Shown here: in pieces, positions 38,299 through 45,153 of the stretch
Position numbering within the stretch: position 1 is the stretch's first letter
How the letters are laid out: the number at the start of each line of letters is the position of its first letter
Program-made: the position numbers and the translations under genes
NCBI RefSeq assembly: GCF_030811595.1
Contig: NZ_JAUSRB010000001.1
Coordinates: 930,001-994,000, forward strand
From: Streptosporangium brasiliense
Lineage (GTDB): Bacteria > Actinomycetota > Actinomycetes > Streptosporangiales > Streptosporangiaceae
DNA: 64,000 nucleotides
Direction: 5' to 3'
The notes under the pieces: generated by a model
Seen by the model: the letters and a program-made list of their open reading frames with translations, nothing else
The model's database searches: none
What the model was told of the DNA's origin: nothing

Positions 38299-38314
38299 TA
38301 GTTTTATCCAACTA
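38299..38314. promoter_or_regulatory. inverted repeat TAGTT-N6-AACTA at pucR start
   Basis: TAGTT (38299-38303) and AACTA (38310-38314) flank TTATCC. The last base is the A of the pucR ATG. An operator here would cover the translation start and the divergent promoter; autoregulation by PucR is a guess. Confidence 0.4.
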
Positions 38315-39819
38315 TGCGGATACGTGACCTGGTCGGGATGGCGGAGCTCGGGCTCACCCTGCTGGTGGGCGAGGAGCATCTGGACCGAGGCTTCACCGGC
38401 GTGCAGATCACCGACCTGCCCGACCCCGGGCGTTACCTGTCCGGCGGGGAGCTGGTGCTGTCCGGGCTCATGTGGCGCAACGGGCCCGGGGACTCCGAAC
38501 GGTTCGTGGGCCGCCTGGTCGAGGCCGGGGTGGCCGCGCTCGGCGCCGGCAGCGCCTGGTTCGGCACGGTCCCCGACGACCTCGTCCAGGCGTGCCGGGC
38601 GCATGACCTGCCGCTGCTGGAGGTGCCGGTCGAGATCTCCTTCCGGACGGTCGCCGAGACGGTCGCCCCCCGGCACGGGGAGCTGCGCGCCGCCCTCGGC
38701 CGCCACCGCAGGATCGTCGCCGCGGTCGCCGAGGGCGCCGGCCTGTCGGAGCTGTTCGCGCTGATGGACGGGGAGCCGGCGATGACCGGCGCGGTCGTCT
38801 CCGCCACCGGCTCGGTCGTCGCCGGCGCCCTGGACCCGGCGGACGCCGTACGGCTGGCGCACGAATACCTGACGGCGCCCCGGCTGCCGTCCGCCGTCCG
38901 AACCCCTACGGGGGTCTTCACCATCTTCGCCGTGGGCCGCGAGCACCGTGCCGCGGGCTGGGCCCTGGTCTGCGGCGGCGACCTGCTCGGCGAGGCGGAC
39001 CTCGGCTTCGAGCTGGCGGCCTGCGTCGCCCTGGAGCGGACCAGGATGGAGGAGGGCCGGCGGGTCGAGCGCCGGCTCGCCGAGCAGCTGATCTCGCTGG
39101 CCGCCTCCGCGGGGAGCGATCCGGCCGAGCTCAACGCCGGGCTGCGGACCTGCGGCATCGGCCCGGCCGAGCCGTACTCCGTGGTGAACGCGACCGTCAC
39201 GTGGGCCGGGACGGCCCGGGATCCGGACCTGCCCGGGCTCGGCGGCCGGGTCCTGGAGGAACTGCTGCGCCCCCGGGCGGTGGCCGCGGCGGTGGCGGAC
39301 GGCGCCGTGGCGCTGGTGCCGCTGGCCGGTACGGCGGGCGAGCTGGCGCAGACGCTGCGGGCGGGCGCGCGGGCCCTGATGGCCGGGCTGAGCGGGGTCC
39401 GGGTGTCGATCGGGGTGAGCGCCGCGCTGACCGGTCCGTCGGCGGTCCGGGGCGGGGCGGAGGAGGCGGGGCACGCGCGGCGGCTGGCCGAGGCGCGCGG
39501 CGGAGGGGTCGCGACCAGCGACGAGATCTACACGCACGCGCTGCTGCTGGCCACCGTCCCCGGCGACGTGCGGCGGTCGTTCGCGGACCGGACGCTCGAC
39601 CCGTTGGTCGACTACGACCGCCGGCACCACTCCGAGCTGGTGCGGACGCTTGAGACGTTCCTCGACTGCGTGGGCTCCTGGAACGTCTGCGCCGAACGCC
39701 TGCACGTCCACGTCAACACGGTCCGCTACCGCGTCCGCCGGATAGAGGAGCTCACCGGCCGGGACCTGTCCACGATGGCCGACCGGGTGGACCTGTTCCT
39801 GGCCCTCAGGGCGTCATGA
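38314..39819 (+). CDS. PucR family transcriptional regulator
   Basis: This 501-residue protein has an N-terminal PucR domain (MRIRDLVGMAELGLTLLVGE, then GVQITDLPDPGRYLSGGELVLSG split over 29-51), a middle region with a degenerate GGDEF-like part, and the C-terminal HTH_30 (LETFLDCVGSWNVCAERLHV, then HVNTVRYRVRRIEELTGRDL). It probably activates or represses the divergent xdh-permease genes in response to purine breakdown products. The ATG is preceded by AT-rich DNA with an inverted repeat. The 3' end of the gene exists again as a broken copy 600 bp downstream, and its stop lies inside a 29-bp tandem duplication. Confidence 0.9.
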   Translation: MRIRDLVGMAELGLTLLVGEEHLDRGFTGVQITDLPDPGRYLSGGELVLSGLMWRNGPGDSERFVGRLVEAGVAALGAGSAWFGTVPDDLVQACRAHDLPLLEVPVEISFRTVAETVAPRHGELRAALGRHRRIVAAVAEGAGLSELFALMDGEPAMTGAVVSATGSVVAGALDPADAVRLAHEYLTAPRLPSAVRTPTGVFTIFAVGREHRAAGWALVCGGDLLGEADLGFELAACVALERTRMEEGRRVERRLAEQLISLAASAGSDPAELNAGLRTCGIGPAEPYSVVNATVTWAGTARDPDLPGLGGRVLEELLRPRAVAAAVADGAVALVPLAGTAGELAQTLRAGARALMAGLSGVRVSIGVSAALTGPSAVRGGAEEAGHARRLAEARGGGVATSDEIYTHALLLATVPGDVRRSFADRTLDPLVDYDRRHHSELVRTLETFLDCVGSWNVCAERLHVHVNTVRYRVRRIEELTGRDLSTMADRVDLFLALRAS

Positions 39820-40417: not shown

Positions 40418-40712
40418 GTGACCGGCGACGAGGTCTGCATGCACGCGCTGTCGCCGGTCACCGTCCCCGGCGACGTGCGGCGGTCGTCCGCGGTGAGGAT
40501 GCTGGGGTCGTTGCCCGACGATGACCGCCGCACCGTTCCGAGCCGGTGCGGACGCTTGAGGCGTTCTTCGACTGCGTGGGTTTCCGGAACGCCCGCACGT
40601 CCATGTCAACACGGTCCGCTACCGCGCACGCCGGATGGAGAAGCTCACCAACCGGGATCCGTCCGCGACGGCCGACCGGGCGGACCTGTCCGTCGCCCTA
40701 CGGGCGAGCTGA
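40418..40712 (+). pseudogene. decayed duplicate of the pucR 3' end
   Basis: This stretch aligns end to end with the last 310 or so bases of pucR. Shared blocks include CACCGTCCCCGGCGACGTGC, GACTGCGTGGG and GTCAACACGGTCCGCTACCG. In three reading frames it encodes TVPGDVRRS, then RTLEAFFDCVGF, then HVHVNTVRYRARRMEKLTNRD, cited by its ends, through to VALRAS and a TGA at 40710-40712. At least two frameshifts and a small deletion between the second and third blocks break it. No start codon or N-terminal PucR part is present, so it is a non-functional partial duplication. Confidence 0.88.
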
Positions 40713-40720
40713 CCCTCCGG

Positions 40721-40894
40721 TCAGTCCGGGTGGTTCCAGCCCAGGCCCTGCAGGATGTTCAACTCGGAAGAATACTCAGAGGTGGACCCTGAGGGGGCAG
40801 ACGAATCAGCGCTTGCGGTCGTAACATTGCCGGTGACGGCAAAGGCGGCCGTAAATAGCATGGCGAGGGCGGACAAGGCGAGACGTCGGCGCAC
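40721..40894 (-). CDS. small secreted peptide precursor
   Basis: A 57-codon gene with GTG start and an excellent ribosome site (AGGAG, about eight bases upstream). Residues 1-29 form a Sec signal peptide: VRRRLALSALAM, a hydrophobic core LFTAAFAVTG, and a cleavage site after ASA. The predicted mature product of about 28 residues starts DSSAPSG and ends SSELNILQGLGWNHPD. Codon choice is less GC-biased than in neighbouring genes (CTA, TTT, AAT, GTT). It diverges from an XRE-TPR regulator gene with only 55 bp between starts. By analogy with peptide-sensing regulator pairs, it could be the precursor of an extracellular signal; this is inference. Nothing similar is known to me. Confidence 0.75.
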   Translation of the reverse strand: MRRRLALSALAMLFTAAFAVTGNVTTASADSSAPSGSTSEYSSELNILQGLGWNHPD

Positions 40895-40949
40895 GGGGAG
40901 ACTCCTGTCGTAGGTTCTGCTGCTCGAATGACATCTTTCAAGGGGTAAC

Positions 40950-42242
40950 GTGACTGGTCAAGACTTGGTCGGGCAGCGCATCAAGACCGTCCGCCGGCAA
41001 CGGGGCCTTTCCCAGGCGCAGCTGGCTCATCCAGAACTGTCGGACAGCTATGTGTCCCTCATCGAGAGCGGCAAGCGCACTCCGACCCTCGCGGTGCTGG
41101 AGCTCCTGGCCGAAAAGCTCGACTGCTCCCTCACGTATCTGATCAACGGTGTGACGGCCGAGCAGATGCAGGAGATCGAGCTCGCGCTGAACTACGCGCA
41201 GCTGGCCATGGACAACGGCGAGGTCGTCGAGGCGCGCGCCCGCTACGCCGAGATCCTCGCCGACAACGGCCTGGCGGGCCTGCCCCAGCTCAGGCAGGAC
41301 GCCGAATACGGCCTGGCGCTGGCGACCGAGGCCTGCGGCGACCTGGAGGAGGCGATCGTCCTGCTCAACAGGTTGCGCCGCAACGACGCCACGGCGATGG
41401 CCCCCGAGCGTCACGTCGCGGTCGCCGTCGCGCTCTCGCGGTGCTACCGCGAGCAGGGCGACCTGGCCCAGGCGGTGCACATCCCCGAGCAGATCCTCGG
41501 CGGAGCGGTCCGGCCCGCCTGGACCGACGACCTGATGAGGCTGGGCGCCCAGCTCCTCGCGGCCTACGTCGAGCGCGGCGACCTGCTGCGGGCCCGCCAG
41601 TTCTCGGCGGAGGTGCTCGCCGCCGCCGACCTTCTCGGCTCGCCGCAGTCGCTCACCCTGGCCCACTGGGGCGCCGCGATCGTCGCGGTGGAGACCGGCC
41701 ACGCCGACGAGGCCGTCACCCACGTCGAGCGGGCCATCGCCATCCAGTCCGAGTACGGCGACCCCCGCCGGCTGGCCCGCCTGCGCGGTGACTACGCCCA
41801 GGTGCTGCTGACCGTGCGGCCCATGGAGGCGCAGGCCTGGCGTGAGGTGCTGCTCAAGGTGGAGAGCGAGCTGATCGAGTCCTCCGCCAGCCCGATGGAC
41901 AAGATGCGCTGCGCGATGAACCTCGCCCGGGTGGAGCTGCTGCTCTCCCGGCCCGAGCGCGCGGGCGAGCACATGCGCGCCGTCTGCGACCTGCTTGACG
42001 GCATGCCGCAGGTGCTGCAGGCCGAGGCCCGGCTGCTGCACGGCGAGACCCTCGCCGAGCTGGGCCGGCAGGACATGGCCGTGCAGGAGCTGCTGGCCGG
42101 GGCGGAGTGCCTGGACCAGTCGCCGACCACCCGCTACACGGCCCACGCGTGGCTGACCGTCGCGCGGGTCCTGGAGCGCGTCGACGAGCCGGCCCGCAGT
42201 GTCGACGCCTACCAGCGGGCGCTGGCCTGCGTGGGCCTCTAG
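40950..42242 (+). CDS. XRE regulator with TPR domain (RRNPP-like architecture)
   Basis: This 430-residue protein has an XRE helix-turn-helix at about residues 7-66 (GQRIKTVRRQRGLSQAQLAH, then DSYVSLIESGKRTPTLAVLE), followed by a wholly alpha-helical region of TPR-like repeats to the end (for example ALNYAQLAMDNGEVVEARAR and AHWGAAIVAVETGHADEAVT). That layout matches cytoplasmic receptors of re-imported signalling peptides (PlcR, Rgg, NprR, PrgX) as well as many actinomycete orphan regulators. GTG with AAGGGG just upstream. A secreted peptide gene is divergent and shares the 55-bp promoter gap, making it the first candidate ligand or target. Confidence 0.9.
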   Translation: MTGQDLVGQRIKTVRRQRGLSQAQLAHPELSDSYVSLIESGKRTPTLAVLELLAEKLDCSLTYLINGVTAEQMQEIELALNYAQLAMDNGEVVEARARYAEILADNGLAGLPQLRQDAEYGLALATEACGDLEEAIVLLNRLRRNDATAMAPERHVAVAVALSRCYREQGDLAQAVHIPEQILGGAVRPAWTDDLMRLGAQLLAAYVERGDLLRARQFSAEVLAAADLLGSPQSLTLAHWGAAIVAVETGHADEAVTHVERAIAIQSEYGDPRRLARLRGDYAQVLLTVRPMEAQAWREVLLKVESELIESSASPMDKMRCAMNLARVELLLSRPERAGEHMRAVCDLLDGMPQVLQAEARLLHGETLAELGRQDMAVQELLAGAECLDQSPTTRYTAHAWLTVARVLERVDEPARSVDAYQRALACVGL

Positions 42243-42296: not shown

Positions 42297-42938
42297 ATGA
42301 AGACTTCCCCTGTCGCGGTCGTTCTCGCGCTTCTCGCCGTCCTCGTCCTCGGCACGGCCTTCGCCTCACCCGCCCTCGCCCACGACACGCTCAAGAGCAG
42401 TGACCCTGCCAAGGGCGCCAAGGTCGAGAGCCTCAAGCAGGTGAAGCTGACGTTCAGCGCCTCGGTGCGCTTCCCGAACGTCGTCGTGCACACCGCCGAC
42501 AACGTCGCCCATCAGGACGGCAAGCCCGTCGTCGACGGCGCGGTGGTGACCCAGGCGCTCAAGGAGGACCTGCCGCCCGGCAAATACGTCATCGCCTACC
42601 GGGTGGTCTCCTCCGACGGTCACCCGATCGAGGGGGAGATCCCCTTCACCCTCGTCGGTTCCCCGTCGGCGACCCCGTCCGAGACGGTCTCCGAGTCCCC
42701 GGCACCGGCCGAGAGCGCGACCGCGGCGCCGGCCGAGAGCGCGACCCCGGCGCCCGCCGCGACCGGGGTCACGGCCGGGCCGGCCACCGCCGCGCTCAGC
42801 CCGGCCCCCGCGGCCCAGACGCAGGACGCGCCCGAGGACTCCGGCGGCGTGCCCGGCTGGATGTGGCTCATCGTGGGCGGCGTGACCGGCGTCGGCATCG
42901 GTCTGTTCTTCAGCATGCGCAACAAGAAGCAGCCGTGA
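42297..42938 (+). CDS. copC: CopC domain copper-binding protein
   Basis: This 213-residue protein has a signal peptide (1-28), with cleavage leaving His as the first residue (ALA|HDTLKSSDP). It then has the CopC beta-barrel with the second copper His in RVVSSDGHPIEGEIPF, a Pro/Ala/Glu-rich linker, and a membrane helix at about 183-204 with a basic tail. Mature His1 plus the internal His and Asp form the Cu(II) site known for CopC. It is anchored outside the membrane and probably hands copper to the adjoining CopD-type transporter, whose start overlaps the stop of this gene (GTGA). Confidence 0.92.
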   Translation: MKTSPVAVVLALLAVLVLGTAFASPALAHDTLKSSDPAKGAKVESLKQVKLTFSASVRFPNVVVHTADNVAHQDGKPVVDGAVVTQALKEDLPPGKYVIAYRVVSSDGHPIEGEIPFTLVGSPSATPSETVSESPAPAESATAAPAESATPAPAATGVTAGPATAALSPAPAAQTQDAPEDSGGVPGWMWLIVGGVTGVGIGLFFSMRNKKQP

Positions 42939-44968
42939 GCAGGCAGGAGCGGGCCGCCCAGGCCGAGGGGGCGGGGACCGGCCGGACGGCGAGGCTCGCC
43001 CTGGCGGGCGTGGCCGCGGCAGTGGTCGGGCTGGTGATCGCCATGATCGCCGGAGGCGCCGCGACCCCGCGCATCATCCCCGGACTGCCCGACCAGGGTG
43101 CGCTCACCCGCTGGGGGCTGCCCCTGGCCAAGCTGACGATGGACGCGGCGGGCGTGCTCACCGTGGGCGTGCTGCTGGCCGCGGCGGTCTTCCTCCCCAG
43201 CGACAAGGGGATGCTCGGCAGGTCCGCCCTCGTCTACGCCAAGGCCGCCTCGTGGCTGGCGCTCGTCTGGGCGGGCGCGGCGGCCGCGACGATGGTGTTC
43301 AGCCTGTCCGACGCGCTCGGCCTGCCCGTCGCCGACGTGCTCGGCGGCAACGAGCTGACCAGCTACGCCAGCCAGGTCTCCCAGGGCATCGCGCTCACCC
43401 TGGTGGTGCTGTTCGGGGTGGCGATCGCGCTGTTCGCCCGTGGGGCGATCACCGTCGGCGCGGCCGGCGGCCTGCTCGTCCTCGCCCTGGCCACCCTCCT
43501 GCCTCCGGCGCTGACCGGCCACTCCTCCTCCTCGCCCAACCACGACCTGGCGACCACCGGCGTCGCGGTGCACCTGATGGCCCTCGCGCTCTGGGTGGGC
43601 GGCCTGGCCGTGCTCTGCGCCCACGCGCTGCGGCGCCAGTCGCACCTGGAGGTCGCCGCCGCCCGGTTCTCCTCGATGGCGATGTGGTGCTTCATCGCCG
43701 TGGGACTGTCGGGCCTGTTCAGCGTGCTGGCCCGGCTCACCTCGCTCTCGGAGCTGTTCACCTCCGCCTACGGCCTGCTGCTGCTGGCCAAGACCGTCGC
43801 GTTCGCGGCGCTCGGCGCCATCGGCTGGTGGCACCGCAAGCGGACCCTGCCCGAGCTGGCCGCCGGCGGACCGGGCGTCTTCGTCCGCTTCGCCTCCTGC
43901 GAGGTCCTCGTCATGGCCGCGACCGTCGGGCTGGCCGTCGCGCTCTCCCGCACCGCCCCGCCCCCGGCGCTCCTGCCGGCCGACCGGGCCTTCGAACTGC
44001 TCGGCTACCCCATGCCGCCGGAGATCTCACTGGCCGGCCTGGCCTCGCTGTGGTGGCTCGACCTGTTCTCCGGCACCTTGATCGCCCTGCTCGGCGGGCT
44101 CTATCTCGCCGGGATCATACGGCTGGCCCGGCGCGGCGACTCCTGGTCCATGGGCCGCACCGCCGCGTGGTTCACCGGCCTGCTGATCCTGGTCATCGCC
44201 ACCCAGAGCGGCGTGGCCCGCTACGCCAAGGTGCTGTTCAGCGTCCACATGGCCGAGCACATGACGCTGTCCATGCTGGTGCCGATCTTCCTGGTGCTCG
44301 GCGCCCCCGTCACGCTGGCGCTGCGTGCGCTCAAACCCGCCGCCCGGCGGGGCGACCGGGGCCCGCGTGAGTGGCTGACCACCATCCTGCACAGCAGGTT
44401 CGTGAGCTTCGTCGCCCACCCGGCGATCGCCACCGCGATCTTCGTCGCCTCCACCTACGCGCTGTACTTCACCCCGCTGTTCGCCGCCGCGATGGAGGAG
44501 CACCTGGGCCACATCGCCATGACGGTGCACTTCCTGCTCAGCGGCTCCCTGTTCTTCTGGGTGATCATCGGTGTGGACCCGGCGCCCCACAAGCTGCCCC
44601 ACTACGCCAGGCTGATGCTGCTGTTCGTCACGATGCCCTTCCACGCGTTCTTCGGCATCGCGCTGATGAGCATGGGCACCGTCCTCGCCGCCGAGTGGTA
44701 CGACCAGCTCGGCCGCACCTGGGGCACCTCCGCGATCGCCGACCAGCAGACCGGCGGCGCCATCGCCTGGGGCTTCGGTGAGATCCCGACGCTGATCGTG
44801 CTGCTCGCGCTGGCCTTCCAGTGGTGGCAGGACGACGACCGCAAGGCCCGTCGCGCCGACCGCCGGGCCGACGCCGCCGCGGCCCGCACCGGCGGGAGCG
44901 GTGACGCGCAGCTCGACGCCTACAACGACTACCTGGCCGAGCTCAACAAGAGGGAGCGCGCCGAGTAA
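42935..44968 (+). CDS. CopD - CtaG (caa3 oxidase assembly) fusion membrane protein
   Basis: A 677-residue membrane protein with two modules. The first, to about residue 330, is a CopD-type copper transporter with the LMALALWVGGLAVLCAH helix. The second is a CtaG_caa3 module (about 360-620) with SVHMAEHMTLSMLVPIFLVLG, HLGHIAMTVHFLLSGSLFFW and MPFHAFFGIALMSMG, His- and Met-rich helices fit for copper. It likely imports copper and delivers it to cytochrome c oxidase. The GTG start overlaps the copC stop. The fusion is known in actinobacteria. The C-terminus is charged and cytoplasmic. Confidence 0.92.
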   Translation: MSRQERAAQAEGAGTGRTARLALAGVAAAVVGLVIAMIAGGAATPRIIPGLPDQGALTRWGLPLAKLTMDAAGVLTVGVLLAAAVFLPSDKGMLGRSALVYAKAASWLALVWAGAAAATMVFSLSDALGLPVADVLGGNELTSYASQVSQGIALTLVVLFGVAIALFARGAITVGAAGGLLVLALATLLPPALTGHSSSSPNHDLATTGVAVHLMALALWVGGLAVLCAHALRRQSHLEVAAARFSSMAMWCFIAVGLSGLFSVLARLTSLSELFTSAYGLLLLAKTVAFAALGAIGWWHRKRTLPELAAGGPGVFVRFASCEVLVMAATVGLAVALSRTAPPPALLPADRAFELLGYPMPPEISLAGLASLWWLDLFSGTLIALLGGLYLAGIIRLARRGDSWSMGRTAAWFTGLLILVIATQSGVARYAKVLFSVHMAEHMTLSMLVPIFLVLGAPVTLALRALKPAARRGDRGPREWLTTILHSRFVSFVAHPAIATAIFVASTYALYFTPLFAAAMEEHLGHIAMTVHFLLSGSLFFWVIIGVDPAPHKLPHYARLMLLFVTMPFHAFFGIALMSMGTVLAAEWYDQLGRTWGTSAIADQQTGGAIAWGFGEIPTLIVLLALAFQWWQDDDRKARRADRRADAAAARTGGSGDAQLDAYNDYLAELNKRERAE

Positions 44969-45153
44969 CCGGCCGGTTACTGCTGCCTATCCGCCGCCAC
45001 CGTTTCGGGTGCCTCCGGTAGCCTTGTAGGCGATCGGGGTCCGGGGAGCACGCGGTGGGTGCGGCGTCTGGTGGCCGCGCGCCACGCCCAGTGACACCTA
45101 TCGGCCGCACGCTCGGCGTGAGACCGGTGGCTGCGCATCAGGAAGGTCGAGCA

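Follow-up and report, generated by a model that had tools for sequence, protein, structure and literature searches.

In Streptosporangium brasiliense, two divergent genes at positions 40721 to 42242 of the 64,000-nucleotide stretch analysed here (the window) encode a short peptide with a predicted Sec signal sequence and a regulator that joins an XRE-type helix-turn-helix (HTH) to tetratricopeptide repeats (TPRs). We consider it probable, at roughly three chances in four, that they form an RRNPP-like peptide-signalling circuit, a switch resembling that of PlcR and PapR. What we observed is the gene pair itself, the conservation of the pairing among relatives, peptide tails that are conserved or repeated, and differences in the receptor's TPR region that accompany differences in the tail.

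The gene pair and its products

The propeptide gene lies on the minus strand at 40721..40894, starts with GTG and encodes 57 residues (MRRRLALSALAMLFTAAFAVTGNVTTASADSSAPSGSTSEYSSELNILQGLGWNHPD). Its ribosome-binding site, AGGAG (40902..40906, minus strand), stands 7 nt 5' of the start, and the coordinates and strong ribosome site reported in the first-pass annotation hold. The product consists of a basic N-terminus, a hydrophobic core, a cleavage site between ASA and D after residue 29 and the tail LGWNHPD. The predicted Sec signal peptide (residues 1-29, ending in ASA; 40808..40894, minus strand), read by eye here as it had been earlier, scores 11.3 on our own hydrophobicity measure. The tail (40724..40744, minus strand) is predicted to be the mature signal or to hold its core, judging by the tails of relatives and by in-gene repeats such as GWNGPD in the Streptosporangium locus L016 and GNWPDPM in Micrococcaceae.

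A database search with the peptide returned 17 proteins including itself, and the five with an organism in their name are all from Streptosporangium. Across the 17, the signal part is almost identical, the spacer varies and a tail with a Trp persists; longer forms repeat the tail motif two or three times, as in P0013, where WTHAD occurs three times. What stays constant in Streptosporangium tails is just the Trp and the residues around it. Among 11 Streptosporangium peptides of 57-58 residues, the ratio of nonsynonymous to synonymous polymorphism (pN/pS) is 0.32 in the signal, 1.25 in the spacer and 0.69 in the last seven residues. The four GWNGPD copies of L016 are identical in DNA, which indicates recent multiplication. 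Neither Pfam nor NCBIfam has a family match for the window propeptide; four other propeptides of the same kind have none at E<=0.01, and the sole match of a fifth, of the GWWPN type, falls below that family's cut-off. No convincing second copy of the window peptide was found in its own genome (next best E 0.88).

The regulator, a predicted peptide receptor of 430 residues (40950..42242, plus strand), starts with GTG 4 nt after the ribosome-binding site AAGGGG (40940..40945, plus strand). The starts of the two genes are separated by a shared control region of 55 bp (40895..40949), as first described. The HTH domain covers about residues 8-64 (40971..41141, plus strand; Pfam HTH_3 at residues 11-64 and HTH_19 at 8-68). 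The TPR region, residues 67-430 (41148..42239, plus strand), is matched by Pfam TPR_12 and others and is predicted to form a peptide-binding superhelix. Besides HTH_3, Pfam reports several TPR families (PF13424 at 1e-11, others above the cut-off), while NCBIfam places no family above its cut-off. The AlphaFold2 model is entirely helical and shows helical repeats, with a mean predicted local distance difference test (pLDDT) score of 90.4, and together with the Pfam families it bears out the earlier view that the C-terminal 360 residues are TPR-like helices. PlcR is the best natural Protein Data Bank match in a profile search (aligned residues 5-187, 8.3e-14) and the first Foldseek match. The ComR HTH is among the profile matches, and ComR is within the Foldseek top 50. 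PlcR was outside the 50 VIA matches listed, which excludes nothing.

Conservation of the pair and its surroundings

With an alignment of 14 regulators as bait we recovered 471 relatives in named genomes and retained the 80 best. The open reading frame (ORF) script accepted divergent ORFs of 35-100 aa with a score >= 9 and a start 20-130 bp from that of the regulator. Such a signal-peptide ORF stands beside the regulator at 79 of the 80 named loci, with a gap of 50-62 bp; the same script found one at 34 of 3247 random positions and at 17 of 655 starts of other long ORFs. The check proposed in the first-pass annotation, for a small secreted-type ORF beside regulator homologues, thus came out in favour of the pair here, as it did in other families and outside the class. 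The tail ends in Cys-Cys at 63 of the 80 loci, in W-x-x-P-x at 14 and otherwise at two (L045, L049); neither of the two main tails was found at any control site. Across 1.06 Mb (the window and the long loci), 85 of 878 signal-peptide-like ORFs end in CC plus <=3 residues. All except eight of these 85 are regulator-adjacent peptides, the eight being seven ORFs that end in CCAC and a second propeptide-like ORF in L061. This CC-tailed ORF (2161-2220 of that locus) lies 1.6 kb past the first.

Such pairs are found across several families and also outside the class; their tails end in Cys-Cys, contain an aromatic-Pro core or combine the two. Class-wide, 86 of 394 genomes contain a regulator homologue at E<=1e-25. 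We selected 40 loci from the homologue matches; a signal-peptide ORF whose tail is either CC or repeated GNWPDPM accompanies the regulator at 24 of them, lying upstream in 15 and at the 3' end, convergently, in nine. In three of the upstream cases (L168, L169 and L170) the CC is followed by one to five further residues. The group f21 has the regulator in 21 of 22 genomes and the CC tail in 20 of those 21, the remaining one lying at a contig end. At L129, L130, L135 and the L004-type loci, which were examined, no such peptide ORF was seen.

The genus of G215, which was assigned to Nocardioides from most organism names of its closest homologues, has the regulator in 24 of 59 genomes. Here a CC-tailed peptide gene, often ending ...WCC, occurs at 25 of 30 loci but at the other end of the regulator, 49-299 bp past the match. 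Two propeptide genes lie downstream of one receptor at L257, L263 and L277, the three duplicates among the 25.

The genus of G042, judged from homologue names to be Arthrobacter or Pseudarthrobacter, has the regulator in all 41 genomes. All 30 loci examined carry a divergent propeptide with 1-4 copies of GNWPDP[MAV], one of them always at the protein end. Over 65 within-gene copy pairs, which are non-independent, we counted 141 synonymous versus 3 nonsynonymous codon differences. The same genus also has TPR paralogues that lack the HTH; at eight of 15 matches inspected (L346-L353) each stands beside a divergent signal-peptide ORF with 1-4 copies of GWWP[NDH], except that one has GSWPN instead and two continue for a few residues past the last copy. 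By its sequence features this is a second pair, of Rap-Phr-like kind.

A phylum-wide sample gave regulator matches in 27 of 296 genomes. Outside the class, a short signal-peptide ORF with an aromatic-Pro tail occurs at 14 of 23 loci, in 11 cases with WP (NWPHVP, NWPKH, NWPHH, GWPKH, GWPRH, SWPHVP, FPWPK, YPWPK, KWPWG, PWPHCC and PWPPCC) and in three with FP; two further loci have the tail WSDGH(L). L292, L305 and L316 are partial. Under matched criteria, which were fixed after the matches had been seen, random windows gave an aromatic-Pro tail in 14 of 704 cases (nine WP), and some of these are genuine peptides of the CC family that lie within the loci sampled. This control supersedes an earlier one of 0 in 114, for which the criteria were unmatched.

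In Streptomyces, a divergent signal-peptide ORF whose hydrophobic part is similar accompanies 13 of the 15 closest homologues (L206-L220), and one of 15 further loci has such an ORF. The genus-wide check did not extend the conserved tail to Streptomyces. Mobile records include 15 plasmid matches to the Nocardioides regulator and eight to the Streptomyces regulator, and an unannotated phage record from human faecal samples (MT836207.1, 95-1069) encodes a relative that is 32.6% identical over 76% of the window regulator. The genome of the window itself (L186, G000:C2:5594500-5614400) has two receptor paralogues about 14 kb apart, one 57% identical and without a peptide, the other 35% identical and accompanied by a signal peptide of its own that ends GGGLCCYE. 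These paralogues adjoin each other in G010 (L188).

Where the tail class changes between relatives, the TPRs of the receptor differ and the HTH hardly does, the tail-linked positions being 201, 237, 241 and 274. Position 241 is Asn in 88 of 100 CC-type receptors and Gly in the window regulator. A test for joint change of the CC-conserved positions gave p=0.027 against two Streptomyces rows.

Codons 23-25 of the propeptide gene coincide with a fixed DNA word (CGTAACATT; 40820..40828, plus strand). Among 78 rows taken from the 80 loci with a loose N/D/H-A/V/G-T/M motif, 76 fit [AC]ATG[CTG]TACG on the peptide strand, and the rare Asn codon AAT appears in 73 of the 78; in the regulators it makes up 49 of 740 Asn codons. 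Read on the regulator strand the word is CGTANCATT, 116-128 bp upstream of the regulator start. It could be the regulator's -10 element (TANNNT), and the transcripts of the two genes would then overlap head to head; alternatively, it may be an operator of the regulator. No palindrome was apparent in the control region by eye or from k-mer and column counts, and no systematic palindrome search was made.

Among the ORFs of the window, those that recur at the majority of the other loci comprise copC, copD and map, the short ORF that lies at 45055, and PucR-like and xdh-like genes. The copC-like and copD-like genes (42297-44968) follow the regulator, each in 78 of the 80 named family loci, which marks the pair as an old and settled part of these chromosomes; no functional connection between these genes and the pair is evident. 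Read by eye, the segment at about 40430-40713 looks like the remains of a second copy of the PucR-type gene at 38314-39819, corresponding to the C-terminal part of its product, and the piece 40546-40824 matches just two of the 80 loci.

A probable signalling circuit and the alternatives to it

Judging by its signal-like start, the 57-residue propeptide is likely to be exported through Sec. Cleavage would then leave a short peptide from its C-terminus, either LGWNHPD or the core of that tail, and repeat-bearing forms would release several peptides. The tail peptide would re-enter cells through an oligopeptide permease, where it would likely be bound in the TPR groove of the neighbouring 430-residue XRE regulator. 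Peptide binding would alter the regulator's DNA binding at the shared 55-bp region, with autoregulation as the expected outcome, and elsewhere at putative target genes. Pairing, sequence profile and fold all back the RRNPP architecture proposed in the first-pass annotation, and from it we infer the signalling. Since several branches of the Actinomycetota contain related pairs whose tails are conserved or repeated, it is likely that actinobacteria signal through small peptides, as Bacillus does.

We also lean towards a broader proposal, with less assurance than for the window pair itself: that the phylum has its own branch of such systems, made up of XRE-TPR receptors (HTH-less TPR proteins in Arthrobacter relatives) and Sec propeptides. 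The C-terminal code would derive from an aromatic-Pro(-Cys-Cys) tail such as PWPHCC and would have been rewritten by lineage along with the TPR groove, Nonomuraea and Nocardioides now having CC, Arthrobacter GNWPDPM and Streptosporangium GW..PD, and would have been multiplied inside the propeptide.

Several observations weigh against the signalling circuit. Designed TPR proteins score above PlcR in the profile search, and unrelated TPR proteins equal Rap and NprR in Z score. The strictly conserved RNPP asparagine that holds the peptide backbone is Asn227 in RapF, according to the available part of the source (PMC3601957). If position 241, which matches it by spacing alone, is this asparagine, it has been lost in the window regulator. 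For the W clade and Micrococcaceae, the CC-conserved positions show no significant joint change (p=0.20). A single CC-to-W switch underlies the receptor comparison within the family, so that shared ancestry can explain part of it. One of the 80 named loci (L078) lacks the peptide and groups with an own-genome paralogue, L002, that is likewise without one. Clear tail-bearing peptides were not found at 16 of the 40 class-wide loci or at five of the 30 Nocardioides loci (one doubtful upstream ORF, four none), and seven of the 23 out-of-class loci have nothing of the kind. In the Streptomyces relatives the tails vary freely with nothing conserved. A freely varying tail had been named at the outset as grounds for refutation; that outcome applies to these relatives and fails in most of the lineages examined, where CC, W-x-x-P and repeated GNWPDPM are invariant.

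The best of the competing explanations, although a distinctly minor one, is that the regulator monitors export: it would bind unexported propeptide in the cytoplasm and so sense Sec performance, with no signal between cells. The signal peptide is indeed the most conserved part in Streptosporangium (pN/pS 0.32), partly owing to the DNA word; a TPR groove could hold the tail of an unprocessed chain, and no importer is linked to the system. However, in-gene repeats of the tail alone better fit the release of several short peptides, and signal sequences vary among families where the CC tail is constant.

Slightly less probable still is the alternative raised in the first-pass annotation, that the product is a small antimicrobial or wall-active peptide whose gene the regulator merely controls. 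A short, predicted secreted product with a Cys-Cys or Trp-Pro tail and an adjoining regulator would suit this role, but repeated units of 5-7 residues suit a signal, and it is the receptor TPRs, not the HTH, that differ with the tail. This last point weakened the alternative, which we retain at low weight. Neither the recurring window ORFs nor two f21 loci, read by eye, showed a recognisable gene for immunity or dedicated export.

It is improbable that the pair serves copC-copD in metal or redox sensing, with the Cys-Cys tail binding copper or forming a vicinal disulphide. That view draws on the constancy of copC and copD beside the regulator and on CC being the commonest tail. Yet the peptides of the window and its clade and of Micrococcaceae have no tail cysteine, though copC-copD stay in Streptosporangium, and two f21 loci inspected by eye have different neighbours, with copC-copD not among their gene calls. 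From these two loci copper is probably not the pair's subject, and the link was set low.

That the ORF arose by chance, or is a mere leader in the regulator's promoter region, might be suggested by its shortness and its overlap with the DNA word, but this is very improbable given the 79 of 80 pairing and its controls, the purifying selection, the codon-diverged Arthrobacter-type repeats and the opposite-end site in Nocardioides, whose convergent arrangement also weakens any reading in terms of a shared promoter only; the chance ORF was rejected.

Should the pair work as a signalling circuit, it would provide a simple linear signal for Streptosporangium, Nonomuraea, Nocardioides and Arthrobacter. 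Synthetic versions of GNWPDPM, LGWNHPD and the CC-tailed peptides can be supplied to cultures, which makes the use of such peptides by actinomycetes directly testable. Provided that silent gene clusters belong to the regulons, the system might also offer a way to reach them. The tail-receptor pairs are also a natural data set on joint change of peptide code and receptor.

Relation to known peptide-receptor systems

The RRNPP_detector signature, as given in the available part of its description, has five criteria: a propeptide of 10-100 aa, Sec export called by SignalP, a receptor of 250-500 aa, TPRs, and adjacency of -60 to 400 bp by default (PMC10075063). The window has a propeptide of 57 aa, a receptor of 430 aa with TPRs, and an adjacency of 55 bp; its likely Sec export is judged from the basic N-terminus, the hydrophobic core (own score 11.3), the ASA site and the pN/pS of 0.32. 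The receptor likewise has the N-terminal HTH, C-terminal TPR layout and PlcR-like similarity. In the same part of that source, the study covered only Firmicutes and viruses, and pheromones with intracellular TPR receptors are assigned to Firmicutes, actinobacterial signals being typically small molecules (PMC10075063); the first-pass annotation's placing of RRNPP systems mainly in Firmicutes agrees with this. For actinobacterial signals, the accessible portion of a 2016 review describes cyclic or modified peptides and butyrolactones (PMC4748050). No actinobacterial RRNPP system was found among the matches listed in the literature searched, a scope that left bioRxiv and most subscription papers outside.

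The NprR-NprX and Rap-Phr systems of Bacillus differ in that the RNPP asparagine, as described in the part of the source available, is unrecognisable in the window regulator, and unrelated TPR proteins tie with their receptors in Z score. NsdA family TPR regulators (NF053720) show weak TPR similarity to two CC-type relatives (33.7 and 18 bits), but these scores are far under the 75-bit cut-off and the window regulator has no NsdA match.

The Rgg-SHP and ComR-ComS systems of Streptococcus have a small-peptide gene adjoining that of an XRE-TPR regulator. The window pair shares this arrangement, and ComR is among the profile and Foldseek matches. Unlike the Sec route predicted here, SHP is exported by PptAB according to the available text (PMC10075063), and the tails are dissimilar.

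The closest parallel is drawn with PlcR-PapR of the Bacillus cereus group, although it belongs to another phylum. The solved PlcR chain has 293 residues as compared with 430 here, the genes described here are divergent or convergent, and the tails are W-x-x-P, aromatic-Pro or Cys-Cys, unlike PapR7, given as ADLPFEF in the part of the source available. In both systems an XRE HTH is followed by TPRs, and the propeptide is encoded by the adjoining gene with its signal, known or predicted, at the C-terminus.
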